Both the position numbers and the translations under genes were made by a program. Below are positions 25,344 through 42,803 of a DNA stretch of 44,454 nt, piece by piece; position 1 is the stretch's first letter; each line of letters starts with the position of its first letter. A model generated the notes under the pieces. That model made no database searches and was not told where the DNA came from. It was given only the letters and a program-made list of their open reading frames with translations. The DNA lies in assembly GCA_011369465.1 (NCBI GenBank), contig DRQG01000062.1:1-44454 (forward strand), written 5' to 3'. The stretch is from Caldithrix abyssi. Lineage in GTDB: Bacteria; Calditrichota; Calditrichia; Calditrichales; Calditrichaceae.

Positions 25344-26102
25344 TTACACTACGTCTATCTGAATATGCCGCTTGTTCAGCTCATCCAGATATTTCGGTTG
25401 AATACCTTTATCCGTTATAATGCGGTCTATTTCATCCAAACCGCAAATAAAGGCCATGGCTTTTTTGCCGAATTTGGAAGAATCTGCTATCAAAATGACT
25501 TCGGAGGCTGCATGGATCATCAAGCTATTGAGTTTTGCCTCTTCATAATTATATGCGGTTAATCCTTTGTCCAAATCGATGCCGTCAACACCTAAGAAAA
25601 GTTTATCCGCCACGGTATTGGCAATCACATTTTCAGCAAACCTGCCGGAAAGGCCAAATGTAGTTTTGTTAAAAACCCCGCCGGTTAAAACCAATTCGTT
25701 ATCGCTGCCTACAATCTCATTGGCTACGTTCAACCCGCCGGTGATGATTTTTATCCCACTACGTAGTTTTAAGCGCCGGGCAATATGTACCGCAGTGAAT
25801 CCGGAATCCAAAATCACAATATCACGGTCATGGATCAGCTTTTCGGCAAAAGCGGCTATGCGTTCCTTTTCTTTTAAATGAATGTTTTCTTTCTCGCTGA
25901 TCGACAGATCCGTCATTATCGTTTGATTCAGTATCCCCCCGCCGTGTACGCGGGTAAGCACACCTTCTTTTTCCAAAACATCCAAATCCTTGCGGATGGT
26001 GACCGGCGTGGTATCAAATTCACGACATAATTCCTGAATGAGCACGCGGCGCTGGGTTTCGACTTTCTGTTTAATGGCCGCTCTTCTCTCAGCACTTAAC
26101 AT
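25344..26102 (-). CDS. DeoR/GlpR-family transcriptional regulator
   Basis: The 252-aa protein has the DeoR N-terminal winged helix (VLIQELCREFDTTPVTIRKDLDVLEKEGVLTRVHGGG). The DeoR sensor domain follows, a ribose-5-phosphate-isomerase-like fold: DSGFTAVHIARRL, GVDGIDLDKGLTAYNYEEAKLN and ILIADSSKFG. Such regulators are usually repressors released by a sugar phosphate. It heads the minus-strand catabolic operon ending at the PreA-like gene, so a KDG-pathway intermediate is a reasonable but unproven effector. It is divergent from the symporter gene across a 383-bp intergenic region. Confidence 0.92.
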   Translation of the reverse strand: MLSAERRAAIKQKVETQRRVLIQELCREFDTTPVTIRKDLDVLEKEGVLTRVHGGGILNQTIMTDLSISEKENIHLKEKERIAAFAEKLIHDRDIVILDSGFTAVHIARRLKLRSGIKIITGGLNVANEIVGSDNELVLTGGVFNKTTFGLSGRFAENVIANTVADKLFLGVDGIDLDKGLTAYNYEEAKLNSLMIHAASEVILIADSSKFGKKAMAFICGLDEIDRIITDKGIQPKYLDELNKRHIQIDVV

Positions 26103-26485: not shown

Positions 26486-28405
26486 ATGCTCGGTCTGCAC
26501 TATCTGGATATCCTCGCCATCGGCGTTTATTTCCTTGCCATCATCGTTATAGGACTTATTGCCAAACGGCAAATCAAGGGCAAAGAAGACTATTTTATGG
26601 GAGGACGAAAACTAGGCAAGTTCGTTTCGGTTTTTCTTGCTTTCGGTTCCGGAACAAGTGCGGATACGGCTATTTCCGCTTCACGAGAAACCTATCGCGC
26701 CGGAATGTCCGGTATCTGGATTCAGCTTTTGTGGTTGTTTATTACCCCATTTTATTGGATTATAGCGCCATGGTACAGGCGGCTGCGCGTAATCACCGGC
26801 GGGGACTATTTTTATGAAAGGTTTGGCAGCAAAGTATTGACGGGTTTATATGTGGGGTTTAGTTTTCTTTTTTTAATGTTTCATATTGCCGTCGCATTGA
26901 CAGCCATCGGTAAAACGGTAGAAATTTTGACCGTCAAACAAGAATTCGAATTAAATTCTATTGAAAAACAAAACGTCAAATTGTATAACGAATACAGTCA
27001 ATTAAAATCGAATTTAAACGAACTGAATGAAAAGGAAAAAGAGCGATTCAACGAACTGGAAATAAAGGTACAAAACGACGAGATACAACCCCACTATTCC
27101 CATTTGACCTCACGAGAATCGCTTCCGGTAATCGCTCTTATAATTATTGTTTACGGGGTGTTGGGCGGTTTATTTGCAGCAGCCTGGACCGATACATTGC
27201 AAGGTGTTTTAATTCTGGTACTGTCACTGATTCTTTTGCCAAGCGGTCTGCAGCAGGTCGGCTGGTTTTCCGGGATGCACGACAAAGTACCTGCGACAAT
27301 GTTTAATATCATCAGTGATCAAATAACGAGCGAATACACCTGGTACTACATCCTCATATTAATTTTGATGAATCTCGTCGGCGTCATATCCATGCCGCAT
27401 TTTTTCGCCACGGGCGGCGGCAGCGCAAAAAATGAAATGACCGCCCGCATTGGATTGGTGGCCGGAAATTATCTAAAACGCTTCACTTCCATTATGTGGG
27501 GACTTACCGGTGTGATGGCCTTTGCTTTATTCGGTAACGTGGTCAGCGATCCGGATATGATTTGGGGTTATGCCACAAGACAACTGTTAGGGCCTGGCCT
27601 GGTTGGTGTAATGATCGCCTGTCTGCTGGCGGCCGTAATGTCCAGCGCAGATGCATTTATGGTTGGCGGTTCTGCGCTGTTTACACGGAATTTTTACGAA
27701 TATATCTTTCCGGATAAAAAGGAAGCGCATTATGTTTTTGTGGGGCGTATTGCTTCTGCGGGAATGATTATCGGTGCGGTTGTTCTTAGTTTTTATTTCA
27801 ACAATATTTTAAGTCTTATTAAATACATCTGGCAGTTACCGGTTATTTTCGGTACGGTTTTCTGGCTAAGCTTATTCTGGCGCAGGCTTACAAAAGCCGC
27901 GGCTATTACCACCGTAGCCTACTCATTCATTATGATTGTTGTACTACCGAACTTACTTCCCGAAATATCATGGGTTACGCAGCACAAATACGCGGATATT
28001 ATCGTATATCCCAACTTATTCATTCTGCATACCCTGGGTATCAACTTAAGCGGGTTATCCGTATCGTGGTTGATGACTATTAACTATGCCATGCAGATTT
28101 CCATACCTTTTATTTTATTATTTGTAATCAGCTATATTTCAACCCCGCCGGATAAAAGGACAGTTGATTTAATTTTTGCCAAACTTAACACACCGGTTTC
28201 CGAAGACAAAGAGGAAGACGAAAGACAAATTGAGCAATATCTGAATAATCCGCAGCATCCCAATAACCGAAGGTTGTTCCCTCATTCCGAATGGGAGATC
28301 AACAAGCCCGATAAAACTCTGGTTGTGGGTTTTTTGGCCAGCTTTGGCATTGCTCTGGCCATATTGGGATTTGCCTTTCTGATTTCTCGCCTCACTATCC
28401 CGTAA
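26486..28405 (+). CDS. Sodium:solute symporter (SSS family) with a coiled-coil insert
   Basis: The 639-aa membrane protein belongs to the SSS/SGLT family. Signs are the first membrane helix from about 8-25, GKEDYFMGGRKLGKFVSVFLAFGSGTSADTAI (sodium-site region), and VYGVLGGLFAAAWTDTLQGVLILVLSL with further helices to about 635. Between helices near residues 122-142 and 212-235 there is a hydrophilic segment (about 150-210) with heptad-like charged repeats (NEYSQLKSNLNELNEKEKERFNELE), predicted as a coiled coil. A second hydrophilic stretch (about 555-610) precedes a final helix. It would import a sugar, uronate or related solute with sodium. A LytTR-like promoter lies upstream. Confidence 0.9.
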   Translation: MLGLHYLDILAIGVYFLAIIVIGLIAKRQIKGKEDYFMGGRKLGKFVSVFLAFGSGTSADTAISASRETYRAGMSGIWIQLLWLFITPFYWIIAPWYRRLRVITGGDYFYERFGSKVLTGLYVGFSFLFLMFHIAVALTAIGKTVEILTVKQEFELNSIEKQNVKLYNEYSQLKSNLNELNEKEKERFNELEIKVQNDEIQPHYSHLTSRESLPVIALIIIVYGVLGGLFAAAWTDTLQGVLILVLSLILLPSGLQQVGWFSGMHDKVPATMFNIISDQITSEYTWYYILILILMNLVGVISMPHFFATGGGSAKNEMTARIGLVAGNYLKRFTSIMWGLTGVMAFALFGNVVSDPDMIWGYATRQLLGPGLVGVMIACLLAAVMSSADAFMVGGSALFTRNFYEYIFPDKKEAHYVFVGRIASAGMIIGAVVLSFYFNNILSLIKYIWQLPVIFGTVFWLSLFWRRLTKAAAITTVAYSFIMIVVLPNLLPEISWVTQHKYADIIVYPNLFILHTLGINLSGLSVSWLMTINYAMQISIPFILLFVISYISTPPDKRTVDLIFAKLNTPVSEDKEEDERQIEQYLNNPQHPNNRRLFPHSEWEINKPDKTLVVGFLASFGIALAILGFAFLISRLTIP

Positions 28406-28613: not shown

Positions 28614-29549
28614 ATGGGAAAAAAATTATGGTTGTTTTACGCTTTGACAACCGCGTTGCTATGGGGTGTTTGGGGCGCATTTATCGAAATACCGGAAAAA
28701 GCCGGTTTCCCGGCCACCCTGGGATATTCGGTTTGGGCGTTAACAATGATTCCCGGAGGCATTTTTGCCCTTATTAAGCTAAAGGGCCAGCTGGATACGG
28801 ATCGACGCTCTGTTTTTCTGGGACTTGGCGCCGGACTTCTGGGGTGCGGCGGTCAGCTCATTTTATTTGAAGCTCTCCGAATAGGTCCCGCTTACCTCAT
28901 ATTTCCTTTTATTTCCATCGCGCCGGTGAGTACTATAATCCTTTCCTATATTTTTTTAAAAGAACGCGCCCGCAGAGTAGCATGGTACGGAATAGGGGCT
29001 GCGGTAATAGCCGTATTCCTATTGTCGTATCAACCGCCGGGGCATTCCGTTGTTAGCGGTTATTTATGGATTCTATTATCTCTCCTGGTGGCATTTATGT
29101 GGAGCATGCAATCCTTCACTTTAAAATTCTCCAATAATTTGATGAGAGCAGAAAGTTTGGTGATTTATACAGTGATTGCTTCTCTGCTCCTTATACCGGT
29201 TGCCATCTTGATGACCGATTTTTCACAGGATATTAACTGGAGTTTTGAGGGACCGGGATTAACGGCAATAATACAATTTTTAAATGCCATCGGTTTTATA
29301 ACGCTGGTTTTCGCTTTTAGATACGGTAAAGCCATTTTTGTCAGTCCGATGGTAAACGCTATGCCGCCGGTGATCACGGTTGTCCTTTCCCTTATCTTGT
29401 ATCAGGTGATTCCTCACCCTATTACAATAAGCGGTATGGTTTTGGCCGTACTCGCCGCCTTTCTGATGGCTTTGGAACCGGATGAAACGACTGCACAAAA
29501 TTCCGATAAAATTAATTCTTCCAAACTTATTCCAAATTCCGAGGAGTAA
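28614..29549 (+). CDS. EamA/DMT-superfamily transporter
   Basis: The 311-aa protein has about ten hydrophobic helices in two repeated halves, the EamA (DMT) pattern. Markers are LWGVWGAFIEIPEKAG at the start, GGQLILFEALRIGPAYLIFPFISIAPVSTIILSYIFLKER ending the first repeat, and FAFRYGKAIFVSPMVNAMPPVITVVLSLILYQ in the second. The GPAYLIF/KAIFVSP-type helices followed by a conserved proline are usual for the family. Three bases separate its stop from the sugar isomerase ATG, so it probably transports a sugar metabolised by that operon, or exports a by-product. Confidence 0.87.
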   Translation: MGKKLWLFYALTTALLWGVWGAFIEIPEKAGFPATLGYSVWALTMIPGGIFALIKLKGQLDTDRRSVFLGLGAGLLGCGGQLILFEALRIGPAYLIFPFISIAPVSTIILSYIFLKERARRVAWYGIGAAVIAVFLLSYQPPGHSVVSGYLWILLSLLVAFMWSMQSFTLKFSNNLMRAESLVIYTVIASLLLIPVAILMTDFSQDINWSFEGPGLTAIIQFLNAIGFITLVFAFRYGKAIFVSPMVNAMPPVITVVLSLILYQVIPHPITISGMVLAVLAAFLMALEPDETTAQNSDKINSSKLIPNSEE

Positions 29550-29552
29550 ACA

Positions 29553-30935
29553 ATGAGCAAACCAAAAGTTGGATTTATCGTTTATGGTGTGCACAAAGAC
29601 GGGCTTTTAGACCCTATGGGCACTCCTTTCATCAATGATCGCCTGATAGAAAACGCCAAAAAAGCGTTAACGGAAGCCGGCCTGAATTTAATCGAGCATG
29701 ATTTAATCATTGCCTCCAAAGTAGAGGCAAAAGCCTGTTTTGCTAAGTTCAAAAAAATGGATGATTTAGATGCTGTTGTTTTGTTTTCGGGCACCTGGGT
29801 CTGGTCAGCGCATCTAATCGGCGCCATCCGCGATTTTTCCTTTACCGGCAAGGGAATCGTGATATGGACCAACCCGGGTTCCCAGGGCTGGCGGCCGGTG
29901 GGCGGTTTGGTGATGCAGGGCGCGCTTAAGGAGGTCGGAATCCGGCATCGTTTTGTGTACGGCGACTATAAAGACCTCAAAGAAATAAACAGAATTGTTT
30001 CTTATTGCCGGGCTTCCATGGAAAAAAACAAACTGAATATGAGCACCGTCGGCGTTTTCGGCGGACGCGGCATGGGACAAACCTGCGGTGTGGCCGATCC
30101 TTCCCAGTGGATGCGTATGTTCGGCATTGATATTGATTCGCGCGATACCACCGAACTGCTTAATACGGCAAAAGCGGTTACCCCTGCGGAAATAGCTGCC
30201 GCCCGTAAAGAAATCCAGCCATTGTTTGCAGAACCCATCCCGGAAGGTGATCAGGCCGACCGCTCCATCAGCTTGTATGTGGCTATTCAGAAAATCCTCA
30301 AAAAAGAAAAATGGGACTATTACACCATTCAGTCCTTTCCGGGTTTGGGCGATGATTACAGCGCCACTTGCTTCGCCCAGAGCATGATGCTCAATGATGG
30401 CGTGGGTACATCCACTCTATCCGATTTTAACACCTTGCTTACCGCCATGCTGCTAACGGATTTAAGTGACGATCCGGTATATTACGGCGATTTGCAGCAT
30501 GTGGATAAATCCAATAATGAGATAAAAATTATCGGCGACGGCGCCTGTCCGCCATCGCTGGCCGGAGAGGTCGGCCCGGCAGGTTTTGCCGAGCATGGTA
30601 TACCCACCGAAGGCGAAGCCGGCGGCCTGTCCGTTAAACTGGTTTGCAAACCGGGGGAAGGCGTGCTGGCCCGCATCGGGCGCAATAACGGTCGTTTCGA
30701 GATGGTTTTAACGCGCTGCACGGTGTTCGAGCCGCCCAAAGAAGAATTGGAAAAACGGCAGCTGGAATGCGGCATTCCCTTCTGGCCGCATGCTTTCGTA
30801 ACCGTTCATTGCGATATCGACGAACTCCTGCAGGCCTGGAATAACGAATACGCCGTGCTCGGCTATGGCGAGCATCTTTATGACGATCTGTCCGCGTTTT
30901 GCGAACTAACGGGAATCAAATTAATTGCATTATAA
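29553..30935 (+). CDS. L-fucose/L-arabinose isomerase-fold sugar isomerase
   Basis: The 460-aa protein resembles the FucI/AraA superfamily of aldose-ketose isomerases. An N-terminal Rossmann-like region (PKVGFIVYGVHKDGLLDP, AVVLFSGTWVWSAHLIGAI) is followed by a middle domain (TVGVFGGRGMGQTCG). The C-terminal domain has EGEAGGLSVKLVCKPGEGVLARIGR, with candidate metal ligands in CDIDEL and the TEGEAG segment. It is shorter than FucI (~590 aa) and AraA (~500 aa), placing it in the 'L-fucose isomerase-like' group whose substrates are mostly unknown. Followed by mutarotase, class II aldolase and FGGY kinase genes, it probably converts an aldose to a ketose. Confidence 0.78.
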   Translation: MSKPKVGFIVYGVHKDGLLDPMGTPFINDRLIENAKKALTEAGLNLIEHDLIIASKVEAKACFAKFKKMDDLDAVVLFSGTWVWSAHLIGAIRDFSFTGKGIVIWTNPGSQGWRPVGGLVMQGALKEVGIRHRFVYGDYKDLKEINRIVSYCRASMEKNKLNMSTVGVFGGRGMGQTCGVADPSQWMRMFGIDIDSRDTTELLNTAKAVTPAEIAAARKEIQPLFAEPIPEGDQADRSISLYVAIQKILKKEKWDYYTIQSFPGLGDDYSATCFAQSMMLNDGVGTSTLSDFNTLLTAMLLTDLSDDPVYYGDLQHVDKSNNEIKIIGDGACPPSLAGEVGPAGFAEHGIPTEGEAGGLSVKLVCKPGEGVLARIGRNNGRFEMVLTRCTVFEPPKEELEKRQLECGIPFWPHAFVTVHCDIDELLQAWNNEYAVLGYGEHLYDDLSAFCELTGIKLIAL

Positions 30936-30947
30936 GCAGGTATTACT

Positions 30948-31802
30948 ATGAAAGAAACATTCCGTTACAAAAACTGGGAGGTGGTATATACGCCGGAAGA
31001 CGGCGCCCGGTTGGATAAACTGGCATACAATGGTGTGGATTTGCTCACCACCGAGCCCGGGACATTCCGCCCCCCTAAAACGGATTACGGCAGCTATGAA
31101 ACACGTCCTGTTTACGGTTATGACGACTGCTTCCCCAGCGTGGAAGAATGCGCCTACCCGGGCAGCTTCTGGCAGGTGCCGGATCACGGTGAAGTGTGCT
31201 GGCTTTCCTGGAACTGCGAGCGACATACTGACCGCCTGTTGTTTTCCGTGGAAAGCGAAGCTTTGCCGGTCGTGTTCCACCGGGAAATGAGATTTGCCGA
31301 AAACACGCTCATCTGGTCATTTCTTGTTCGCAATAAAAGCGACAGGATGCTGCCGTTTCAGCATGTTATCCATCCATTGATGCCCCTTTCACAAATAAAA
31401 GAGGTTCAACTGCCCCCTTTCGATTCCGTATATGACGAAATCGGACAAAAGACATTGAATTTAAAACAACCGGAGGAGGTCCGGGCTTTTCTTGCCGACC
31501 AGTCCATAGGAACGGCAAACATGCTTTTCCTGCGCAAGATTAAAGAAGGTAAATTAAGCCTTACTTTCCGGGCCGGACTGACCCTGGAAATGACTTTCCC
31601 GTCTGCGCTGTTTCCTTCCATCGGCATCTGGTGGAACAACGCAGGTTATCCCGACGAGCCCGGAATACGGCGGGATGAATGTGCTTTTGAACCTATCCCC
31701 GGCTTGAACAGCCGTTTAAGCGACGCCCATGAAAACGGCCTTTGCCTGAATCTTCCGCCGGAAGACGAAACATCCTGGCAAATTGAGTGGAAAATAACTT
31801 AA
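30948..31802 (+). CDS. Aldose-1-epimerase (mutarotase)-like protein
   Basis: The 284-aa protein looks like a galactose-mutarotase-type beta-sandwich: WEVVYTPEDGARLDKLAYNGVDLLTT at the start, PVYGYDDCFPSVEE, the central MLPFQHVIHPLMPL with a histidine in the catalytic-His region, and IGIWWNNAGYPDEPG with later acidic residues near the C-terminus (CAFEPIPGLNSRL). Such proteins speed anomer interconversion of sugars or sugar phosphates. It lies 12 bp after the isomerase and 13 bp before the aldolase, which fits a role in presenting the right anomer to the isomerase. The sugar is unknown. Confidence 0.72.
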   Translation: MKETFRYKNWEVVYTPEDGARLDKLAYNGVDLLTTEPGTFRPPKTDYGSYETRPVYGYDDCFPSVEECAYPGSFWQVPDHGEVCWLSWNCERHTDRLLFSVESEALPVVFHREMRFAENTLIWSFLVRNKSDRMLPFQHVIHPLMPLSQIKEVQLPPFDSVYDEIGQKTLNLKQPEEVRAFLADQSIGTANMLFLRKIKEGKLSLTFRAGLTLEMTFPSALFPSIGIWWNNAGYPDEPGIRRDECAFEPIPGLNSRLSDAHENGLCLNLPPEDETSWQIEWKIT

Positions 31803-31815
31803 TTATGAGAAAAAG

Positions 31816-32838
31816 ATGCCGCTTGTTTTAGATCGTGAACAGGTGTTGGGACTTTATGCCGAAGCGGCCGAACGAAAGTGGGTTTTACCGACCTTCAATG
31901 CCGAAAACCTGACCACCTGTGAGGCCATTTTAAGCGCCGTACTCGAATACGGACAGACTATCGATATCCCCGATTTGCCCGTTATTATCGGCATTACGAA
32001 TCTATACCCACCGCGCCCTCAGTCGCTGTATTACACCCATACCCGGCAATGGCAGGTCGGCCTGCGCTTGTTTTTGGAAGAAATGAAGGTGCTGCTGTCC
32101 GACACGTCTCCTTTTGCCGAATTAAGAGTAATGCTCCATTTAGACCATATTCAATGGGATATGGATGCAGAAATCTTACATTGGGACATGTGTTCGTTTT
32201 CATCGATCATGTACGACGCTTCCAACCTGCCGCTGCAGGAAAATATAGCTCGTACCGCTGCCTTTCGGGAAAAGTACGGTCACTCTGTTGTTGTGGAAGG
32301 CGCCTGCGACGAAATCGGTAAAACTGGTTCGGCAAACCAAATGTATTTGACTTCACCGGATGAGGCCGAGCGTTACTGGAAGGAAACCGGAGTGGATATC
32401 ATTGTCGCTAATCTGGGTACCGAACATCGTGCCGCGGCTTCCGAACTGCGTTACCATGCTCAGTTAGCGCGGGAGATCACCCGCCGCATTAAACCCTGTC
32501 TCTGCTTGCACGGGACCTCCTCGGTTCCTGTCGATTCTCTGCACAATCTTTTTAACGACGGTATCCGCAAGGTAAACATCTGGACTGTTTTGGAACGCGA
32601 AAGTTCCGCTTTGCTTTTTAGAGAAATGGTTAAAAATGCCACAAAAATCGTTGGGCACGAAGAAGTAAAACGGATGCAGCGAGACGGCCTGCTCGGGCCG
32701 CAAGCGAAAACCGCAGAAACCGCTTCCGTTGAGTATTTTACCACAACCTATCGACAGGGGATTGTTTTCGAAAAAATGAAAGAGATTGTAACACGGTATT
32801 TAAAAGCATTTTACCGGTATAAAAAAGAGAATGATTAA
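31816..32838 (+). CDS. Class II (zinc) fructose-bisphosphate aldolase-family protein
   Basis: The 340-aa TIM barrel shows class II aldolase markers: LPTFNAENLTTCEAIL, zinc histidine in MLHLDH, SSIMYDASNLPLQENI, the glutamate in VVVEGACDEIG, then GTEHRAAA and LHGTSSVP in place of the usual GTxHG and HGxSGxP, and IRKVNIWT in the phosphate loop. The altered zinc-site surroundings and an extended N-terminal loop (PPRPQSLYYTHTRQW) suggest a substrate other than fructose-1,6-bisphosphate. The preceding isomerase and following FGGY kinase imply cleavage of a ketose-1-phosphate to DHAP plus an aldehyde. That is inference. Confidence 0.82.
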   Translation: MPLVLDREQVLGLYAEAAERKWVLPTFNAENLTTCEAILSAVLEYGQTIDIPDLPVIIGITNLYPPRPQSLYYTHTRQWQVGLRLFLEEMKVLLSDTSPFAELRVMLHLDHIQWDMDAEILHWDMCSFSSIMYDASNLPLQENIARTAAFREKYGHSVVVEGACDEIGKTGSANQMYLTSPDEAERYWKETGVDIIVANLGTEHRAAASELRYHAQLAREITRRIKPCLCLHGTSSVPVDSLHNLFNDGIRKVNIWTVLERESSALLFREMVKNATKIVGHEEVKRMQRDGLLGPQAKTAETASVEYFTTTYRQGIVFEKMKEIVTRYLKAFYRYKKEND

Positions 32839-32877
32839 GGCCAATCGTTCCGTTAGCTTTTTAGGGAAAATCCGCTT

Positions 32878-34383
32878 ATGAAGATAAAAAACTATCTGGG
32901 TATCGATATCGGCACCAGCGGCTGTAAAGCAGCTGTTTTTGATGCGGCAGGCAGCCAGATTACGCTTGCCGCACAGGAATACGACGTCATTTTTTCCGAC
33001 GACGGCGGGGCGGAGCTGAATTCCGACGAAGTGATAGAAAAATGTTTTCGGGTAATACGTGAATGCGCTGCTCAGGTAGAGAAACGTTCCATCGCTGCGT
33101 TAGCCATTGCCAGCCAGGGCGAAGCCTTTACCGCCATTGGAGAAAACGGTCAATCCTTATGTAACGCCATGGTTTCTTCCGATATGCGTTCGGAAACGCA
33201 TGTACAGCAGTGGACCGAACGGTTCGGTTCGGAAAAACTGTACAAGATAACCGGCCATACGGCACACCCCATGTTTACTCTATTCAAACTGTTTTGGTTA
33301 AAAACGGAACGGCCGGAAATCTGGAAAAAGACTAAAAAATTTCTCTGTTTCGAAGACCTGCTGCAATTCAGATTAGGTTTATCCCCGGCGATCGCCTGGC
33401 CGCTGGCCGGGCGCACTATGTTGTTTGACGTAAACAGACATTGCTGGTCTCCGGAAATTCTGACTTCTCTTGGTTTAGATTCTGAGCAGTTAGCCGTACC
33501 CGTGCCATCCGGCAGTGTGGTCGGCCGTTTGGATACAGAAACGGCGCAAAGACTCGGCCTGGCCGAACAAGCCATGGTGGTTACAGCCGGGCATGATCAG
33601 CCGGTGGGGGCGCTGGGCGCCGGAGCCACGCAAGCGAAAACGGCCATGTACGCCACCGGAACCGTGGAGTGCATTACGCCCGTAATCAAAAAAGCGGTTT
33701 ACTCGGAAGCGTTACGCCGGAATAATTTGTGCACGTACGATTATGTTTTAAAAGATTATTATACCACGGTCGCCTTTAGCCTGACAGGGGGAAATATTTT
33801 AAAATGGTTTCGGGATGAATTCGGTCAGCCGGAGCTGCGGGAGGCGCAGCAAACCGGGATAAACGCTTACGAACTTCTTCTTAACGCCGCCGCAAGCTCC
33901 CCAACCGATTTATTGGTGCTGCCTTATTTTACACCTTCCGGTACGCCCTATTTCGATACAAAAACCAGGGGAGCCATTGCCGGGTTACGGTTATCCAGCA
34001 AACGCAGCGAAGTTATCCGCGCCTTGCTGGAAGGCGTGGCTCTGGAAATGCGGCTCAACATCGATATACTCGAAAAGTCGGGCTACAAAATAAAAGAATT
34101 GCGCGCCATTGGCGGCGGTGCAAAATCGCCAAAATGGACGCAGCTGAAAGCGGATGTAACCGGGAAAAAGATCATTACCCTAAAAGTAACGGAAGCGGTA
34201 TGTATGGGAGCCGCTATGCTGGCCTGTGCTGCAGATACGGGTAAACCGATCGCGGAGCTGGCCGAAAAATGGGTATGCCCGGAAAGTACCGTTTATCCCG
34301 ACCCGGACAACACAGTTTGGTACGGTAAAGTATTCAAAAAGTACAAACAGCTCTACCAGGCGATGAAAAGTTTAAATATTTAA
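32878..34383 (+). CDS. FGGY-family carbohydrate kinase (xylulokinase/fuculokinase-like)
   Basis: The 501-aa protein has both FGGY domains. The N-terminal domain begins YLGIDIGTSGCKAAVFDAAG, with the catalytic aspartate region VVTAGHDQPVGALGAGA (about 236-252). The C-terminal nucleotide-binding domain has GVALEMRLNIDIL, LRAIGGGAKSPKWTQLKADVTGKKI and EAVCMGAAMLA. It would phosphorylate a ketose or polyol with ATP in the cytoplasm. It is the last gene of the plus-strand sugar operon, 39 bp after the aldolase and convergent with the SorE-like gene. Xylulose, L-fuculose and L-rhamnulose kinases are all close relatives. Confidence 0.88.
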   Translation: MKIKNYLGIDIGTSGCKAAVFDAAGSQITLAAQEYDVIFSDDGGAELNSDEVIEKCFRVIRECAAQVEKRSIAALAIASQGEAFTAIGENGQSLCNAMVSSDMRSETHVQQWTERFGSEKLYKITGHTAHPMFTLFKLFWLKTERPEIWKKTKKFLCFEDLLQFRLGLSPAIAWPLAGRTMLFDVNRHCWSPEILTSLGLDSEQLAVPVPSGSVVGRLDTETAQRLGLAEQAMVVTAGHDQPVGALGAGATQAKTAMYATGTVECITPVIKKAVYSEALRRNNLCTYDYVLKDYYTTVAFSLTGGNILKWFRDEFGQPELREAQQTGINAYELLLNAAASSPTDLLVLPYFTPSGTPYFDTKTRGAIAGLRLSSKRSEVIRALLEGVALEMRLNIDILEKSGYKIKELRAIGGGAKSPKWTQLKADVTGKKIITLKVTEAVCMGAAMLACAADTGKPIAELAEKWVCPESTVYPDPDNTVWYGKVFKKYKQLYQAMKSLNI

Positions 34384-34462: not shown

Positions 34463-35719
34463 TTATTCAATTCTTTCCGCATTTTTAAGCAGATATTCTT
34501 CCGCCTCTTTGGACCAAAGGCCGTTATTCTTTTTGGTTATTTGCGCCAGTTCCCCGAATAACGTATCCGCCTTGGCTTTTTCTTCAAACTCATCAAGCGC
34601 AGTTAACGGCAATGATATTTGCGGATAAATCAGTTTTTTACCGCCGGGTATTTTGGGAAGGTTTAAGATGGTTTGCACGGCACTGTCCAACCCGCCTATA
34701 TGAGTAATCATAATAGCCGGATTAATACGGTTTTTTTTAATCATCCGCAGGGCGTCGAGCAAATCTTCGCTGTTACTTCCGGCGGAGCCGATAATATGAT
34801 GTCTGTTATAGTGGACGTCGTAAAAATTAATTTCGGCGCTAAAATTTTTCTGCGACGGGCCCGCAAAAAAATTTAAACAGCCTCCGGGAGCCATTAACTG
34901 CTGGGCCTGTGTTACCAGTTCTTTAACCGGAACAAAAATAAAAACATCATCAAAGCGAACACCGCCGGTTTGCGCCAAGATTTCCGCTGCCGTCCTGCCT
35001 CCGCTGTTTACAAACAATAATTCGACGTTTTTTTCATCGCAAAACAGTTTTTCCGCCCGGTCAAGTTTTGCCTGATCGATATCGGTAAGCAGAATGCGCG
35101 CCGGTTTTTGATCCATGTTCAAAAGGATATCAATCATGGCCAACCCCATGGGACCGCCGCCGCCCAATACGGCCACATTCCCCTGTTCCTTTATACCCGT
35201 TTTGTGCCCGTATTGATTTGTTTCGTAGTGAAACTGCTCTTTTATAGCGCCGAATATACAGGCAATCGGTTCGGCCAGCGAACCTTTGAAATAAGCGTCC
35301 GCCTCGCAGGGAAGGAGACAATTTTGTTCCATGACCTCGCCGGGAATAATCACTTTGGTGGCATTTCCGCCTAAATAGAAAAACGAGTAACCCGGCGCTT
35401 CCGCTTCCCTTCCGGGAATGTTTAAAGCCGGCTGGATTGTAAATTTACTGCCAGCCTTAAATCGGTCTTTATATGCATTGCCCACCTCGAGGATATTTCC
35501 GCACAGTTCATGCCCGATAATAACGGGATTTTCAGCCACATTGTCTGGAACTCTTTTGTGATCCGCCCCCTGGATAACCGCCTTATGGGACGACATGCAG
35601 ATACTATTGCTGATGACCTCGGCTAATATCTCGTTTTCCCTGATTTTCGGTAACTCAAAGGATTCCATCCGTAAATCGTTTTTGCCGTAAAGTCTTATTG
35701 CGGTGGTCTGTTTTTTCAC
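34463..35719 (-). CDS. sorE: L-sorbose-1-phosphate reductase-like zinc-family dehydrogenase
   Basis: The 418-aa medium-chain dehydrogenase matches what I recall of Klebsiella SorE in length and distinctive segments: ISNSICMSSHKAV, HKRVPDNVAENPVIIGHELCG, GGNATKVIIP, GGCLNFFAGPSQKNFSAEINFYDVHYN, and MITHIGGLDSAVQTILNLPKIPGGKKLIYP. The NAD motif is AVLGGGGPMG. SorE interconverts L-sorbose-1-P and D-glucitol-6-P. Here it lies 6 bp downstream of a fused 2-oxoacid dehydrogenase E1, which is not its usual company, so it may act on a related ketose-1-phosphate. No sorbose PTS is seen. Confidence 0.75.
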   Translation of the reverse strand: MKKQTTAIRLYGKNDLRMESFELPKIRENEILAEVISNSICMSSHKAVIQGADHKRVPDNVAENPVIIGHELCGNILEVGNAYKDRFKAGSKFTIQPALNIPGREAEAPGYSFFYLGGNATKVIIPGEVMEQNCLLPCEADAYFKGSLAEPIACIFGAIKEQFHYETNQYGHKTGIKEQGNVAVLGGGGPMGLAMIDILLNMDQKPARILLTDIDQAKLDRAEKLFCDEKNVELLFVNSGGRTAAEILAQTGGVRFDDVFIFVPVKELVTQAQQLMAPGGCLNFFAGPSQKNFSAEINFYDVHYNRHHIIGSAGSNSEDLLDALRMIKKNRINPAIMITHIGGLDSAVQTILNLPKIPGGKKLIYPQISLPLTALDEFEEKAKADTLFGELAQITKKNNGLWSKEAEEYLLKNAERIE

Positions 35720-35725
35720 TTTGGA

Positions 35726-38188
35726 TTACACCCCCTTCTTGTTTCGGTATTTTAGTTCCTCGATACTTTGATTGGTCGATACCCGGTGACCCGGAAGCGG
35801 CAAAAGTCTTTCATGAATTGCATCTATAATCCATTCCTTTTGCGGGAAAAACATATTTTCCAATTCGGCGGCGGGGGTAATCCAATTTCTGGAACCAACA
35901 ACTACAGGAGGCCCGTCCAACTCGTCAAAAGCAAGCTGTGTAATTTGCGCCGCCATAGTATTGAGAAAGGAACCCCTTTCCACGGCGTCGGAAACAAGGA
36001 CTATTTTTCCCGTTTTTTTCAGGGAATCGACTATTAAATCATAATTGAGCGGATTAATAAAACGGGCATCAATAATTTCCGCTTCCAGGTCATATTGCTC
36101 TCTTAACACCTCCGCCGCATCCAAAGCGGCATAAAGAGCGGCGCCAATGGTTACAATGGTTATATCTTTTCCGGTAGTGCGTATTACCGGCTGCCCCTCT
36201 TCTATTTCATAATATCCTTCGGGCACTCCCTCTGTATGAAACATTTCTCCCACATCATATATTTTCTGGCTCTCCAAAAACACGACCGGGTCTGTGCCGC
36301 TCAGAGCTAAATTCATCATGCCTTTGGCGTCGTAGGGGGTGGCGGGAAACATCACTTTTAAACCCGGAATGTGGGCAAGCATGGCCGACCAATCCTGAGA
36401 ATGCTGTGCGCCGTACTTGTTACCTACCGAAATGCGCAGCACCAGCGGCATTCGAAGAACGCCCGCGGACATGGATTGCCATTTGGCCATTTGATTAAAT
36501 ACCTCATCGCCTGCTCTGCCCAGAAAATCGTTATACATCAATTCCACAAGGGCGCGGCCACCGGACAGAGCATACCCAACCGCCGTGCCGACGATGGCGC
36601 CTTCGGCAATGGGTGCATTGAACAGCCGATGATAAGGCAAGGCTTCGGTAAGTCCCCGATAAACGGCAAAAGCGCCGCCCCAATCCCGGTTTTCTTCGCC
36701 GTAAATCACCAACGTCGGGTCGATGTAGGCGCGATGGATAATCGCTTCGAATAGAGCATCGCGCAAAAGAAACATTTTATTTTTGGAATACAGTTTGCCG
36801 CTGCGGTCGTAGGCATAACGTTCTTTTTTTGCTAACGATTTTAATCGGGAATTTTCTTCCAATGGCAGCAGCACTTCCGGCTCTCTGTTTTCGAATTTTT
36901 CTATCTTCTGATTGGAAAACATTACGCCGGCAATATACTCCGAATGCAGCGCTTCACGGGGCGAAACAGCCATATCAACCGCTTTGGCAAAATTGCCCGC
37001 TATTTTGTTGCGTGCTGTTTCCTTAAAGGCCAGCAGTTCTTCCTGAGAAAGAACATCATGTTTTATTAAATAGCGGGCGTACTCATTTACGGCATCGTTC
37101 TTTTCCCATAATTCCAGTTCCTCTTTTGTTCTGTAAGACGAAGCATCCGAGGGGGAGTGTCCCGAATAGCGGTAGGTAATGGTATCCAGTAGAACCGGCC
37201 CCCGGCCTTCCTGTAATATTTTTCGTTTTCTTTCAACAGCATCGGCCACGGCCAGCGGGTTGTAACCATCCACCCGTTCGGCATGAAGCTGATCGCTGTT
37301 AACACCCGCACCGATTCTGGCCAGTGTATTAAAACCCATTGTCTCACCCACAGTTTGCCCGCCCATGCCATAAAAATTGTTAAAATAGTTGAAGATCACG
37401 GGAGGGGCGCCAAATCCTTTCCCCCATAATGTTTTGTATTGATCCATCGAGGCAAAAGCCAGAGCCTCCCACGTAGGTCCGCAGGCGGAAGCGCCGTCGC
37501 CGATATTGGAAATAACGATGCCATCCTTTTTGTTCACCAATTTATAGAGCGCAGCGCCTAAAGCGATGTCGGCTGAACCGCCCACTATAGCGTTATTGGG
37601 CATACTTCCGAAGGGTGCAAAAAAGGCATGCATAGAACCGCCTAATCCTCTGTGAAATCCGGTCACTTTGGCAAAGATTTCGGCCAGCATGCCGTACAAG
37701 ATGAAATCATAGGCTAAATCTTTAATATCGGAATGTGAACCGTCCTTTTCAACAACTTTAAAGATGGCGCCGTCCAGATAGGTTTTCATAATTTCGATTA
37801 AGTCGCTCTCGCTTGTTTTTACAATAGCGGAAAAACTCTTGGCAAGTATTTCACCGTGACTGCGATGCGAACCGAAGATCAAATCGTTTCTATCCAGGGT
37901 GAGGGCCTGCCCAACGGCAGCAGCCTCCTGCCCCAAAGACAGATGAGCCGGTCCTTTATGATTATATTTGACGCCCTGGTACACGCCTTCCGTTTTTATT
38001 TTATTCAAGGCGTATTCGAATTCCCGGATGATCAGCATATCCATCAGAATACGCCTTAATCCCTCGATGCCATATTTTTTAACCTCACGGGAAAAGTCGG
38101 GTTTATATTGGTTTAACGGAATGTCCCGCAACTTTAGTATGCCGGCTTTTCTAACGTCGGCGGGATCAATTAAAATCGATTTTGGCAT
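35726..38188 (-). CDS. 2-oxoacid dehydrogenase E1, alpha and beta subunits fused
   Basis: The 820-aa protein joins E1 alpha (about 30-400) and E1 beta (about 470-800). The alpha half has the thiamine diphosphate motif starting IGDGASACG and closing at [11 protein letters not shown], plus the phosphorylation-loop-like [13 protein letters not shown]. The beta half has [51 protein letters not shown] and the transketolase C-terminal domain ([18 protein letters not shown]). It decarboxylates a 2-oxo acid, or cleaves an acetoin-like ketol, and passes the acyl group to E2 lipoate. It is larger than the usual ~660-aa fused E1 because of an N-terminal extension and extra residues near 110-175. Substrate unknown. 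Confidence 0.88.
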
Positions 38189-38206
38189 TCTGTTCTCCGC
38201 TGGTTC

Positions 38207-39562
38207 TTACTGTGTATCTTCCAGTTCCCATAAGGTATCCTTAATGGCTTCGGATACTGTGGGATGCGGAAAAATGATTTCCTTGATATCTCTAACTCTG
38301 AGTTCCGCTTCGATCATAAGCGCCGCACCGTAAATGATCTCCGAATTTGTACCACCCAGTAGAAACAGGCCTAAAAGCAGATTATTCTCGGCGTCCACCA
38401 CCACCTTACAAAGGCCCTGTTCCCTTCCGTGTTCCGCATAAAAACGGCCATTGGCTCTTAGTTGCAGGGTTTTTGATTTTGTATGATATCCCCGCTCGGC
38501 GGCCTGTGCTTCGCTTAATCCCACGCCGGACAACTCCGGATATGTATAGATGACCCAGGGAATGGCATGGTAACGCATCCTGTCTTTAATGCCTGTTATG
38601 GTATTTACGGCCACTTCAGCCATGCGATAGGCGGAATGGGCCAGCGCCGATTTTCCCGTAACATCTCCGACTGCAAAAATGCCGGGTATGTTGGTTTGCA
38701 TTCTATCATTTACCTCTATTCCCCTGCTGCTGTAATCGAGATTTAATCTTTCCAAACCAAGCCCCTGCACATTGGGCGCCCGGCCGGCAGCCAGAAGCAC
38801 CAAATCGGCCTCACAACTCATTTCATTGCCGTTTTTCCGATAAACCACCCACCGGTTTTCAATCCTTTGTACACGGGCGTCTGTAATGATGGTACAGTTT
38901 TTAAGCGCGTTGCCCAGCGCTTTGGCGATTTCAACATCCACCTGGGGGAGTATTTCCGGCAGCATTTCCAGTACCGTTACCTCCACACCCACCATGCCAA
39001 AATACGAGGCGAATTCCAGCCCGATAACCCCGCCGCCTATGATAACCGCTTTACGGGGCAACTTTTCAATAGAGAATATGGTGTCGCTGGTAAATACATT
39101 TTCCCTATCGATACCTTCAATGGGAGGCAAAGCGGCAGACGAACCGGTTGCAATGATTATATTGTCCGCCCTGTAGGCATTGCTGCCGACCTTTAGTGTG
39201 TTTTTATGTTTAAATTCGGCAAAGCCTCTCAGCGTTGTAACCTTGCTGCGTTTCATGCGGAAAGACACGCCTTTGGTCATTAAATCCACAACTTTGTTTT
39301 TCCAGGCAACTGCTTTTTCAAAATGGTATTCTGCACCCGAAACAGAAACACCGTATTGTACGCTGTTTTGGGCTTTATAAAATATTTTGGCGGAATGAAG
39401 CCAGGTTTTCGTGGGTATGCAGCCTCTGTTCAGACAAACGCCTCCCAGCCGCTCTTCTTTTTCCACGAGCAGAACCTTCAGTCCTTTATTGCCGGCTCGT
39501 TCGGCGGCAAGATAGCCTCCCGGCCCGCTTCCGATAACAATTAAATCATAGTGTTGTTGCAA
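38207..39562 (-). CDS. lpdA: Dihydrolipoyl dehydrogenase (E3)
   Basis: The 451-aa flavoprotein has the FAD motif IGSGPGGYLAAERAG, the redox disulfide GGVCLNRGCIP (Cys43, Cys48), the NAD motif VIIGGGVIGLEFASYF, the second FAD motif GIFAVGDVTG and the catalytic His-Glu pair in HPTVSEAI. It reoxidises dihydrolipoate on E2 with NAD. It sits between E2 (24 bp upstream) and fused E1 (18 bp downstream), so the operon encodes a complete dedicated complex rather than borrowing a housekeeping E3. Confidence 0.93.
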   Translation of the reverse strand: MQQHYDLIVIGSGPGGYLAAERAGNKGLKVLLVEKEERLGGVCLNRGCIPTKTWLHSAKIFYKAQNSVQYGVSVSGAEYHFEKAVAWKNKVVDLMTKGVSFRMKRSKVTTLRGFAEFKHKNTLKVGSNAYRADNIIIATGSSAALPPIEGIDRENVFTSDTIFSIEKLPRKAVIIGGGVIGLEFASYFGMVGVEVTVLEMLPEILPQVDVEIAKALGNALKNCTIITDARVQRIENRWVVYRKNGNEMSCEADLVLLAAGRAPNVQGLGLERLNLDYSSRGIEVNDRMQTNIPGIFAVGDVTGKSALAHSAYRMAEVAVNTITGIKDRMRYHAIPWVIYTYPELSGVGLSEAQAAERGYHTKSKTLQLRANGRFYAEHGREQGLCKVVVDAENNLLLGLFLLGGTNSEIIYGAALMIEAELRVRDIKEIIFPHPTVSEAIKDTLWELEDTQ

Positions 39563-39586
39563 AGTCCTCTCCTGTTTTGCGAGCAG

Positions 39587-40924
39587 CTATATCGCAACGA
39601 GTATATTAATGTTTTTTATTGCTTCCGCCAGTTCCTGTAAAAAACCGGTGCCTGCCGCACCGTCGATGACCTGGTGATTTATGGTCAGCGACAAACCAAT
39701 GTGGGGGGTAAATTCTACCCCTGCTTCCGTTTGAACCGGCTTCAGATGGATCGCATTCAAACCCAAAATGGCGTTTTGCGGCAAATTCAACACCGGTGTG
39801 AAACTCTCAATACCAAAAGAACCCAGGTTGGTAACCGTAAACGTGGCCGGGGACAGGTCTTCTTTGTGTATCCTATTATTGCGGCAAGCTTCCGTCAGCC
39901 GTTTTATCTCTTTGGATAGAGAAAGCAGATCGAAGTTTTGCGCGTTTTTTACGGTGGGAACAATCAATCCGCGTTTCGTGTCAACGGCAAAACCGAGATG
40001 GATGTTTTTGTAATACTTAACGGTATAGTCGTTCAGCAAGCTGTTGATAACCGGATGATTGGGCAATATTTTTATCACTGCAAACATCACAAGATCGTTG
40101 ATATTGACCGAAGCAAAAGGATGATTGAGGGCGCTCTTCTTGAAACCCGCCCTCAAAGCCAGTAAAGCCGACGCATCCGCGCTGCGATGTAGCGTTAACT
40201 GCGCCGAATTTTGCAGGGAAGCCAGCATTCTCTCGGATATGATTTTACGCACACCTTTCAGGGGCTCTTCCCGGACAATATCCTTTTCCGGTTCAGCCTG
40301 GGAAGAAGATAAAACATCCTGCCTGGTTATCCGGCCGCCCAAACCGCTGCCCTCGGCAGGAAGGGGTGCATCAGTTACCAAGACCGCCTCCCTGGCTGCC
40401 GGCGTCAAGGGTTGCCTGATCTGCATTACATTCAGAACATCCCTTTCGATAACCCGCCCCATAGGACCGCTGCCCTGTATTCCGGAAAGCGAGATGCCGT
40501 GCTTTTTCGCTAATTGTCTGGCCCGCGGCGAAACGCCACGTCTGTTGTTTGATGTTTTTTCAGTAACCGGTATCTTTTCTTCACTCTCTTTGTGTCCTGT
40601 TTCAGGTGCCGGAAGGTTTACCGGCGATTCCTGCGGTTGTTCAGGGATATCCGTTTGAGCCGGGCGTAAATTCTCATAGTCCTCACCTTCTTCACCGATT
40701 GCCGCAATATGGGTTAAAACCGGTATATCGTCCCCTTCCTCAAAAAATAATTCAAGCAGCGTCCCTTCTTCTTCCGCTTCTATTTCGAACACCGCTTTAT
40801 CGGTCTCCACCTCGCAGAGGATATCGCCTTTTTTTATTTTATCACCCTTTTTCTTTCTCCAGGACAATAGAATACACGATTCTACCGTATTCCCCTGACG
40901 GGGCAAAATTACAGCTTTTGCCAT
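39587..40924 (-). CDS. Dihydrolipoamide acyltransferase (E2)
   Basis: The 445-aa protein has one lipoyl domain (1-80; lipoyl Lys43 in ETDKAVFE) and a linker rich in Pro/Glu (81-128). A peripheral subunit-binding domain follows (131-163; SPRARQLAKKHGISL, GSGPMGRVIERDV). A second, degenerate copy appears at 174-205 (TPAAREAV, GSGLGGRITRQDVL). The catalytic domain (about 220-445) has the active-site NHQVIDGAAG. It transfers an acyl group from E1 to CoA. Its start codon follows directly on the stop of the MtlD-like gene. Acyl specificity cannot be read from sequence. Confidence 0.9.
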   Translation of the reverse strand: MAKAVILPRQGNTVESCILLSWRKKKGDKIKKGDILCEVETDKAVFEIEAEEEGTLLELFFEEGDDIPVLTHIAAIGEEGEDYENLRPAQTDIPEQPQESPVNLPAPETGHKESEEKIPVTEKTSNNRRGVSPRARQLAKKHGISLSGIQGSGPMGRVIERDVLNVMQIRQPLTPAAREAVLVTDAPLPAEGSGLGGRITRQDVLSSSQAEPEKDIVREEPLKGVRKIISERMLASLQNSAQLTLHRSADASALLALRAGFKKSALNHPFASVNINDLVMFAVIKILPNHPVINSLLNDYTVKYYKNIHLGFAVDTKRGLIVPTVKNAQNFDLLSLSKEIKRLTEACRNNRIHKEDLSPATFTVTNLGSFGIESFTPVLNLPQNAILGLNAIHLKPVQTEAGVEFTPHIGLSLTINHQVIDGAAGTGFLQELAEAIKNINILVAI

Positions 40925-42208
40925 TTAGCCGCTCCCTTTTCCCGCAAAATGAAACTGTTCCATAAATTCATCATACTGTGCCATAATTAAACTCAGAACC
41001 ATATCTTTAAGCCCGTCATCTTCCGCTTTTTCCCAAATAGAAATGAGTATATCTCGCACCCTGTTTTTGCTTAAACAAGAAATATCTTCCGGAAGCGGGA
41101 TTCCTTTTTCCTGTCTGTTCTTTATCAAAAAACAAATACCCCCCAAAACACCTTTGGCGATGGTATTTGCCTGAACCTTCTGTTTAAGCGCTTCTCTGAT
41201 GGTACCGATCAACCTGTCGCCATATCCTAACTTGCGTAACGGATCACGGCAAATTCTTTGTACTTCATCCCTTAAGAACGGATTGGTCATACGCTGTAAC
41301 AGGTCTTCGCCGTAAGCGGCAAAGCCCCTTTCGGTGAATAGCGAGTCACCCAGATGTTGATATTTTTTTACCAGGAATGCGCCGCTTTCCTTTTTAAAGG
41401 CCGTTTCACCGTAGGCCCACAACATTTGGTCATTTTTAATTTCATCCATATAGTTATAGGATTTCATATCGGCTAAAAAGCCGAGCATCGAATGAACCGC
41501 ATTGTGACCAAACAGTTTGGCTTCTTCGAAGGGCAAGAGATTTTCTTTTTCTACAAAGACGTCTATCCCCCGGGTAAAGCCGGGTAGAGTAATTTTGCTG
41601 ACGATGATGCTGTTAAATGCTTCCACTAAAACAGCATAGGAACTTTCCCGGGTAATCGTGCTTAGGTCAAGCCGTTCTATGGTTTCTTTATTTTGTATGA
41701 TTCCGCTCATTTTTCCAATGACCGTATTAAGGGGCTGAAAATTAACCAACTTTTCGGACCCGGCTATCTGTTGAATTTGCTTGTAAAGAATTTCAGCTGC
41801 GTAATTATTGTTTTCCGCGGCATAGAGTATTTGTTGCCTGGCCGGATTGATGTTTTCCGCCAGCAAAGAAACAATAGAATTTTCGCCCTTCGTATAAAAG
41901 TCGATGCTCGGAACGGCAGTAGCCATTTCATCCGCGCAACGGATGGCCGCTTTTATTTTTTTTACATCCTCTGCATTTAGGGGGTTATACACTTCAATAT
42001 TTTTGATATGGAATTTTTCTATCTTGCTGTCCGTAGCAATATTGACGATGATGGAATTTCCTTCGTGCCTTACTTCGCTGACCAATTTTTCATTAATTTC
42101 GGCTATGACCAAACGATCGAAATTACCCGATTTAGTCGCTTCCAACAGCATCAACCCGGATTGGATAGCTCCCAGACCGAAACCAAAAAATGTCTTTTTC
42201 CTATTCAA
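40925..42208 (-). CDS. Mannitol-1-phosphate 5-dehydrogenase-like polyol-phosphate dehydrogenase
   Basis: The 427-aa protein resembles the mannitol dehydrogenase family. The N-terminal nucleotide motif (FFGFGLGAIQSGLMLLEA) is followed by a middle region with a possible catalytic lysine segment. The all-helical C-terminal domain has the family marker RDPLRKLGYGDRLIGTIREAL. MtlD oxidises mannitol-1-P (or, in relatives, glucitol-6-P or other polyol phosphates) to a ketose phosphate. It lies between the HAD phosphatase (16 bp) and E2 (0 bp). With the SorE-like enzyme in the same operon it could form a ketose-1-P to polyol-phosphate to ketose-6-P conversion. The glycine motif is unusual for MtlD, so function is uncertain. 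Confidence 0.7.
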   Translation of the reverse strand: MNRKKTFFGFGLGAIQSGLMLLEATKSGNFDRLVIAEINEKLVSEVRHEGNSIIVNIATDSKIEKFHIKNIEVYNPLNAEDVKKIKAAIRCADEMATAVPSIDFYTKGENSIVSLLAENINPARQQILYAAENNNYAAEILYKQIQQIAGSEKLVNFQPLNTVIGKMSGIIQNKETIERLDLSTITRESSYAVLVEAFNSIIVSKITLPGFTRGIDVFVEKENLLPFEEAKLFGHNAVHSMLGFLADMKSYNYMDEIKNDQMLWAYGETAFKKESGAFLVKKYQHLGDSLFTERGFAAYGEDLLQRMTNPFLRDEVQRICRDPLRKLGYGDRLIGTIREALKQKVQANTIAKGVLGGICFLIKNRQEKGIPLPEDISCLSKNRVRDILISIWEKAEDDGLKDMVLSLIMAQYDEFMEQFHFAGKGSG

Positions 42209-42224: not shown

Positions 42225-42803
42225 TTAAATATACTTTCTTATATCCGTTACGATCATGCCTGCTTTTTCGGCCGCCTCTATACCGTAATCGCCATCTTCA
42301 AAAACCTGGCACCGTTCCGGTACAACGTTTAAACAACGAGCGGCCTCAAGAAACATATCGGGAGCCGGTTTGGGGGCCAGACCGTCATCAGCGGTCAGTA
42401 TCACCTTAAACAGCCCGGCTAACCCGACAGCCTGCAGGGAAATTCTCACGCTTTTTTCCGGGCTGCCGGAACAAACAGCCATGGGTAGAATACCCGCATG
42501 ATGCCGTACAACTTCAGCCACCGGTTCAATGGGTTTAACGGTCTGCAAACGCTTTAAGGCTATTTCTTCCTTTATTGCAGTAAATCTCAGCACATTAAGA
42601 TGGTCGTTATAATGTCGGTTATACTCTCGTACTACATCCGCTACCCGCATGCCTTTGCGTGCATTTACAAAGTCATGAGGATAAGAGCGGCCAAACTTTT
42701 TAAAGGTTTCCCGCCAGGCTTCAAAATGCAGAGGCATTGAATCCACCAGTGTACCGTCACAGTCAAAGATCAATGCCTGTATATTTTTTTCTATTTTGAT
42801 CAT
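42225..42803 (-). CDS. HAD-superfamily phosphatase/phosphomutase (beta-phosphoglucomutase-like)
   Basis: The 192-aa protein has the four HAD motifs: FDCDGTLVDS (nucleophile Asp14, acid/base Asp16), AVCSGSPE, the lysine in APKPAPDMF and the acidic pair in VFEDGDYG. A helical cap sits between motifs I and II (FEAWRETFKKFG). It resembles YqaB/beta-phosphoglucomutase-like sugar phosphatases. Its start overlaps the DeoR stop by 4 bases (42800-42803), so translation is coupled. It may dephosphorylate or isomerise a sugar phosphate in the same pathway, or clear a dead-end one. Confidence 0.87.
   Translation of the reverse strand: MIKIEKNIQALIFDCDGTLVDSMPLHFEAWRETFKKFGRSYPHDFVNARKGMRVADVVREYNRHYNDHLNVLRFTAIKEEIALKRLQTVKPIEPVAEVVRHHAGILPMAVCSGSPEKSVRISLQAVGLAGLFKVILTADDGLAPKPAPDMFLEAARCLNVVPERCQVFEDGDYGIEAAEKAGMIVTDIRKYI

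Follow-up and report, generated by a model that had tools for sequence, protein, structure and literature searches.

Catabolism of L-fucose (fucI-fucK-fucA) and of L-rhamnose combines an isomerase fold, an FGGY kinase and a zinc aldolase that yields dihydroxyacetone phosphate (DHAP). A comparable set of genes lies in a stretch of 44,454 nucleotides from Caldithrix abyssi (contig DRQG01000062.1, the whole of which we call the window). Five genes, all on the plus strand, encode an EamA-family transporter (28614..29549; Pfam EamA, 84 bits), a 460-residue protein of the FucI/AraA fold that presumably turns an aldose into a ketose (ISO; 29553..30935), a 284-residue aldose mutarotase-like protein (MUT; 30948..31802), a 340-residue zinc class II aldolase of the F_bP type (ALD; 31816..32838), and a 501-residue FGGY kinase presumed to be a ketose 1-kinase (32878..34383). 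In the list of open reading frames (ORFs) the successive gaps are 3, 12, 13 and 39 bases. An earlier note on this DNA had named these five products in this order, and domain scans back the names, apart from sub-threshold Fucose_iso scores for ISO and the absence of any Pfam hit for MUT. The presumed ketose-1-phosphate is a further point of likeness to the L-fucose and L-rhamnose routes. Their aldolases, however, are of the FucA/RhaD type (PF00596) and not the F_bP type (PF01116), and the window differs again in its mutarotase-like protein, in its transporter, and in an ISO without two of the metal ligands.

Three other systems invite comparison. The aga/kba module of Calditrichota follows the same isomerase-kinase-class II aldolase logic, with the same EamA subfamily, related DeoR regulators and some of the same island genes; in the window, however, a FucI-fold protein stands in place of the SIS-type AgaS, an FGGY kinase in place of PfkB, and ALD without GatZ in place of KbaY-GatZ, and the two modules coexist in one genome. 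The ydj cluster of E. coli (YdjH, YdjI) has an F_bP-type aldolase annotated for a ketose-1-phosphate and zinc dehydrogenases nearby; its kinase, in contrast, is of the PfkB type, it has no isomerase, and ALD is distant from YdjI (44 bits). The sulfo-Embden-Meyerhof-Parnas pathway sulfo-EMP2 (SqvD, SqiK, SqiA) likewise joins a FucI-family isomerase to a class II aldolase that yields DHAP and an unphosphorylated aldehyde, but ISO scores far under the isomerase cut-off, the kinase family differs, and no sulfoquinovosidase was seen among the window proteins scanned. The pathway logic of the block is plausible, and we regard it as a variant of the isomerase-kinase-aldolase kind in which ISO may follow a different chemistry.

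We propose, with moderate confidence, that these genes form a catabolic module common to several phyla. A free aldose would enter through the EamA transporter, a sodium:solute symporter of the SSS family encoded upstream, or both; MUT would supply the right anomer; ISO would turn the aldose into a ketose; the kinase would phosphorylate the ketose, most likely at O1; and ALD would cleave the ketose-1-phosphate to DHAP and an unphosphorylated aldehyde. The route would be a sister of the AgaS-GatZ-PfkB-KbaY pathway, acting on a related sugar whose C6 probably stays unphosphorylated. Each reaction, the position of the phosphate and the sugar itself are predictions. The earlier note had put forward this progression from aldose to ketose, ketose phosphate, and DHAP plus aldehyde with a fructose-bisphosphate aldolase (FBA)-type enzyme; our analysis supports it, and YdjI offers an annotated precedent. 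Searches for papers on YdjI with sorbose, on L-galactose/L-tagatose routes and on clusters of FucI, FGGY and class II aldolase genes turned up nothing of use.

Conservation of the gene block

ISO, MUT, ALD and FGGY form a conserved block that recurs in several phyla. Close relatives of ISO (79-84% identity) occur in 5 of 40 Calditrichota genomes, that of the window included; close relatives of ALD (58-62%) occur in exactly those five and always beside ISO, the remaining aldolase matches across the 40 genomes being about 30% identical to ALD. If the genomes were independent, the chance of this coincidence would be 1.5e-6; because they share ancestry, the true chance is greater. Since the gene order is kept in other genomes, and since ALD and ISO keep to the same five, the arrangement is not a product of chance.

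The isomerase alignment, run in one scan against species genomes, found 53 ISO loci, with record titles naming Calditrichota, KSB1, Melioribacteraceae, Bacteroidota, Lentisphaerae, Kiritimatiellota, Verrucomicrobia, Planctomycetota, Chloroflexi and others; these genomes are almost all metagenome-assembled, so that binning errors are possible. Longest-ORF calls picked shadow ORFs in G+C-rich contigs, so neighborhoods were taken from homology searches instead. Among the 34 loci with at least 3.5 kb downstream, ISO is adjoined by ALD in 12, by an FGGY kinase in 15 and by MUT in 14. A search of plasmids returned generic class II aldolases as the only relatives of ALD, and one distant match to ISO. 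Two loci hold a protein of about 485 residues with a signal-peptide-like start between MUT and ALD (L036:12770-14221 and L058:12485-13939).

Active sites of the predicted enzymes

The structural model of ISO (predicted local distance difference test, pLDDT, 87.5; template modeling score about 0.8 to AraA and 0.74-0.80 to FucI) has the three-domain FucI/AraA fold. The Pfam domains Fucose_iso_N1 and _C reach 23.1 and 22.9 bits, under their cut-offs of 29.3 and 28; the sole curated match is a sulfoquinovose isomerase model (SftI, NF048012) at 65 bits, against a cut-off of 700; and a single-sequence search of the PDB found no sequence relative. The metal ligands are Glu306, Glu333, His350 and His450 in AraA, and Glu337, Asp361 and His528 in FucI. 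HMMER, MAFFT and hhalign agree in aligning Leu289 of ISO (codon 30417-30419, plus strand, as for the other ligand columns) to Glu306 of AraA and Glu337 of FucI. Asp313 (30489-30491) occupies the position of FucI Asp361, so that this ligand is kept, and two multiple alignments place Glu432 (30846-30848) and Tyr433 where the C-terminal histidine ligand would be; this last replacement is slightly less certain because hhalign against AraA leaves the C-terminal end gapped. Leu289, Asp313, His316, Asp329, Glu432 and Tyr433 are invariant in 34 of 34 ISO proteins, and Glu353 is likewise invariant among the relatives. The Glu, Asp and His ligands of FucI are all kept in eight other superfamily members (AraA, FucI, a Chlorohelix homologue, and the Calditrichota proteins L008, L075, L079, L080 and L081; L082, for which the wrong ORF had been chosen, was left out of this comparison). 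With two of the three ligands replaced throughout one set and all three kept in the other, ISO stands apart as a separate, uniformly altered group.

A canonical manganese isomerase role is therefore not supported by the alignments, and neither is a working canonical FucI/AraA isomerase, as the reading in the earlier note would have it. ISO may hold a metal differently, with Asp313, Asp329, Glu432 and His316 as candidate ligands, or may work without one; the label "isomerase" is safe as a statement of fold, not of function. A FucI-family protein with intact ligands, encoded on a Chlorohelix plasmid (L090:7641-8981), adjoins genes for nitrite/sulfite reductase, siroheme and sugar metabolism, and that region is possibly a sulfosugar locus.

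ALD belongs to the F_bP aldolase family (PF01116, 123 bits; cut-off 25.5) and the only PF01116 protein in its genome. We aligned it with FbaA, KbaY, GatY and YdjI of E. coli, numbering FbaA without its initial Met and taking the roles of FbaA residues as established. Asn35, Asp109, His110, Asp144, His226, His264, Gly265, Ser267, Asn286 and Thr289 of FbaA are kept; in ALD's own numbering the zinc histidines H111, H204 and H232 and the catalytic aspartate D110 are intact. The alignment thus shows that ALD retains its zinc site and catalytic aspartate, together with the greater part of the DHAP site. The changes are Gly227 to Arg205, which places an arginine at the phosphate-loop glycine beside a zinc histidine, Asp288 to Trp256, the Glu174/Glu182 region, and Arg331. 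The motif GTEHR (residues 201-205; 32416-32430) is invariant, and HGTSSVP (residues 232-238; 32509-32529) nearly so, in 14 aldolases from several phyla. Of the altered zinc-site surroundings described in the earlier note, then, the change in the phosphate loop next to the ligands stands, whereas the zinc ligands themselves are conserved. Arg331 binds the second phosphate in bisphosphate aldolases. ALD has a Thr at the aligned position and seems to be without an arginine binding the 6-phosphate; YdjI, too, lacks Arg331 in the alignment. With its catalytic sites kept and this arginine apparently absent, ALD would fit the splitting of a ketose-1-phosphate. Its AlphaFold model (pLDDT 88) matches class II aldolases, with SqiA first and many others nearly equal. 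Nor is ALD a housekeeping enzyme, a reading that the earlier note had allowed might undo its proposal: the genome has a class I FBA on contig C83 (506 bits, above a cut-off of 327), so that ALD is not the glycolytic enzyme, and the ALD subfamily is confined to 5 of the 40 genomes.

MUT has no Pfam match, and the best PDB match of its family profile, the aldose 1-epimerase 3nre, is weak (E 0.002); His80, His142 and Glu248 are invariant in five relatives. The presence of a mutarotase-like protein in the block points to a free reducing sugar as the substrate. In the kinase both FGGY_N (179 bits) and FGGY_C (117 bits) exceed the Pfam cut-offs, and Asp10 and Asp240 are invariant. Phosphorylation at C1 with C6 left free is favored by three features: the block has only one kinase, it includes a mutarotase, and ALD probably lacks the 6-phosphate arginine.

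Several observations nevertheless weigh against the route as we have drawn it. Two of the three FucI metal ligands are, on the alignments, replaced throughout the ISO group, so that isomerization by ISO is itself a presumption. The nearest curated model of the kinase is xylulokinase (XylB; 296 bits, under the equivalog cut-off of 380), and xylulokinase phosphorylates O5. An invariant Arg313 lies close to the Arg331 position of ALD, which makes the loss of the 6-phosphate arginine insecure, and the substrate could be a bisphosphate. Finally, none of ALD, FGGY and MUT is near ISO in 16 of the 34 loci with sufficient downstream sequence.

Genomic context and the nature of the sugar

The EamA subfamily keeps almost exclusively to the neighborhood of ISO blocks and AgaS modules. 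The 40 Calditrichota genomes hold 19 strong matches to it: 13 lie within 2.6 kb of an AgaS-family gene and 4 within 5.3 kb of ISO; one adjoins GatZ and PfkB (L131), and for the last (L130) the contig breaks off after LacD and Gfo/Idh genes, ISO being next in the sister locus. The AgaS modules run DeoR, AgaS, GatZ, EamA, PfkB, often with KbaY and an amidohydrolase; one of them, AgaS-GatZ-EamA-PfkB, is on contig C53 of the window genome. AgaS-family genes (348-387 bits; cut-off 529) occur in four of the five ISO genomes, with weaker ones in G037, and the window operon has no AgaS, GatZ/KbaZ or KbaY. Since ISO genomes also carry AgaS-family genes, the ISO block is a companion of that module, and we rejected the idea that ISO substitutes for AgaS. 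In one locus (L021) AgaS (367 bits), a KbaZ-like gene and PfkB are followed by EamA-NagB-PfkB-ISO-MUT-ALD-FGGY, and an AgaS island in G020 shares with the window an aminotransferase (72%), a LytTR regulator (71%) and an amidohydrolase (58%). A DeoR-family regulator divergent from the operon (25344..26102, minus strand) has AgaR as its best curated match (227 bits, cut-off 260) and is 39-44% identical to regulators beside AgaS modules; a second, encoded with a fructose-1-phosphate phosphatase-like HAD protein (127 bits, cut-off 215) at 42225..43564 on the minus strand, also matches AgaR best, again below the cut-off (183 bits against 260).

The ISO route is thus probably a sister of the AgaS/GatZ/PfkB galactosamine-type pathway, and its sugar is perhaps one that cannot take a phosphate at position 6. 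By association, the context suggests a galactosamine/tagatose type of pathway, although it does not prove a galacto-configured or an amino sugar. The L-hexose substrate that the earlier note had called compatible has no specific support and loses ground accordingly: AgaS, GatZ, the AgaR-like repressors and the common EamA subfamily all point toward the galactosamine/tagatose type.

Other genes recur near ISO. NagB-like genes are found in five loci. A NagB-like subfamily (70-76% identical) that is accompanied by a PfkB kinase occurs near ISO at L022:5476-6372, with relatives in L021, L040, L064 and L069. Its motif is DGHxAYNQ, that of NagB being DGHIAFNE, and its catalytic Glu may also be replaced. 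A GlmD-like SIS gene lies 3' of ISO in L042. A PF04909 amidohydrolase adjoins ISO, directly upstream, in about 18 loci (e.g., L040:8824-9987); it matches no NCBIfam model, and a sequence search of the PDB gave no relative. Its relatives adjoin GH4 and ABC sugar transporter genes in Pelagibacterium, Embleya and Nonomuraea. MelA-like GH4 genes that exceed their cut-off are neighbors of ISO in L034 and L056, and in Embleya one adjoins the amidohydrolase.

Downstream of the kinase, one convergent minus-strand run (34463-42208) encodes a SorE-like (L-sorbose-1-phosphate reductase-like) dehydrogenase (34463..35719), a fused E1-E3-E2 lipoamide 2-oxoacid/acetoin dehydrogenase-like complex recognized by Pfam (35726..40924), and an MtlD-like polyol(-phosphate) dehydrogenase (40925..42208). 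Of the convergent SorE/MtlD-like pair of the earlier note, the SorE call is right: the first protein is 46-47% identical to annotated SorE over 99% of its length. The MtlD-like protein is far below its cut-off (104 versus 368 bits). All three are optional partners of the block and lie near ISO in the window, L019 and L036, in L036 as a single run in which SorE is joined to ISO-MUT-ALD-FGGY; the Chloroflexi loci L030, L034 and L044 show looser links. E1-E3-E2 accompanies ISO in L019 and L036 and is more distant in L030 and L044; the MtlD-like gene accompanies ISO in L019, L036 and L034. Relatives of the fused E1 (52-53%) occur on plasmids of Rhizobium and Agrobacterium, where their neighbors are sugar genes and genes for a lipoyl-domain protein and an alpha/beta hydrolase. 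The complex may be acetoin-dehydrogenase-like and cleave a sugar-derived ketol.

These surroundings, and the altered site of ISO, leave room for other accounts. One, unlikely in our judgment, is a special form of the route proposed here: ISO would be a metal-independent isomerase/deaminase of a free 2-amino sugar, AgaS- or NagB-like, acting after the amidohydrolase has removed an acyl group, and FGGY and ALD would then act on the ketose in turn. Phosphorylation at C1 and not C6 would be explained if the substrate were a 6-deoxy amino sugar, for example fucosamine. The lost metal ligands fit such an enzyme, as do the AgaS- or GlmD-like, NagB-like and GatZ-like neighbors of ISO at several loci, the PF04909 amidohydrolase beside about 18, a relative of which stands next to a BadF kinase, SIS and GatZ in Pelagibacterium, the AgaR-like regulators, and the EamA subfamily common to AgaS modules. 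All of this is association, however; we know of no deacetylase function for the amidohydrolase, the NagB-like genes of the same loci would already deaminate, and an AgaS module need not serve an amino sugar. The uniformly rebuilt site, with its invariant His316, Asp329, Glu353 and Glu432, could also mean that ISO is no isomerase at all and epimerizes or dehydrates, for example, a keto-sugar made by Gfo/Idh, the ketose for FGGY and ALD arriving otherwise. Gfo/Idh and LacD genes beside ISO in five loci, and the 16 loci with neither ALD nor FGGY nearby, speak for this idea; we find it quite doubtful, as most loci lack Gfo/Idh and LacD and the order of MUT, kinase and aldolase fits isomerization, phosphorylation and cleavage.

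In the branch that the earlier note had offered, the kinase would make an L-ketose-1-phosphate, which SorE would reduce and MtlD then reoxidize to a ketose-6-phosphate. The identity to SorE and the company that SorE, E1-E3-E2 and MtlD keep with ISO (one run in L036, close together in the window and in L019, and in L034 MtlD next to ISO) speak for it, but we consider it improbable: MtlD is far below its cut-off and ALD would become unnecessary. Because these genes are missing from most core loci, the reduce-and-reoxidize branch is best seen as an optional extension. A sulfoquinovose-type route, in which isomerase, kinase and a class II SqiA aldolase would yield DHAP and sulfolactaldehyde, draws on the only curated match of ISO and the best structural match of ALD, and is very unlikely indeed. 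No genome of the phylum exceeds the 700-bit cut-off of the isomerase model, which ISO itself misses by far; a closer relative of that model (L075, 143 bits) keeps the metal ligands absent from ISO; no GH31 protein occurs among the window proteins scanned; and the kinase belongs to another family. On the first two of these grounds we rejected it.

Flanking genes and significance

Upstream of the operon, the SSS-family symporter gene (26486..28405, plus strand; Pfam SSF, 114 bits) ends 208 bases 5' of EamA. The symporter is possibly an importer, and a relative (64%) lies upstream of the ISO block in L012/L023. Farther away, a minus-strand cluster (14228-25316) encodes a class III aminotransferase, Gfo/Idh proteins, a 2-hydroxyacid dehydrogenase, a PfkB kinase, a KDPG-type aldolase, an SDR protein and a ferredoxin-fused dihydroorotate dehydrogenase-like protein. 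The region 7874-14192 encodes two amidohydrolases, an M20 peptidase-like protein, an MGH1-like glycosidase and a sulfatase with an SGSH-type C-terminal domain; M20 and LytTR relatives also occur in the ISO island of G016.

A bolder reading, which we think unlikely, takes ISO as the founder of a new group of enzymes built on the FucI/AraA fold: such an enzyme would convert a free sugar, perhaps an amino sugar that loses ammonia, without the canonical metal site, and would open a route of isomerization or deamination, 1-phosphorylation and cleavage common to many poorly cultured phyla. Whatever its chemistry, ISO offers a natural example of an active site rebuilt within a well-studied fold, and naming it automatically as an L-fucose isomerase is unsafe. 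The dedicated EamA subfamily and the sister AgaS module make the substrate directly testable. Since the lineages that carry the block (Calditrichota, KSB1, Lentisphaerota, Kiritimatiellota, Planctomycetota, Anaerolineae and others) are known mostly from metagenomes, finding out which sugar it degrades would reveal a carbon source that recurs among them.

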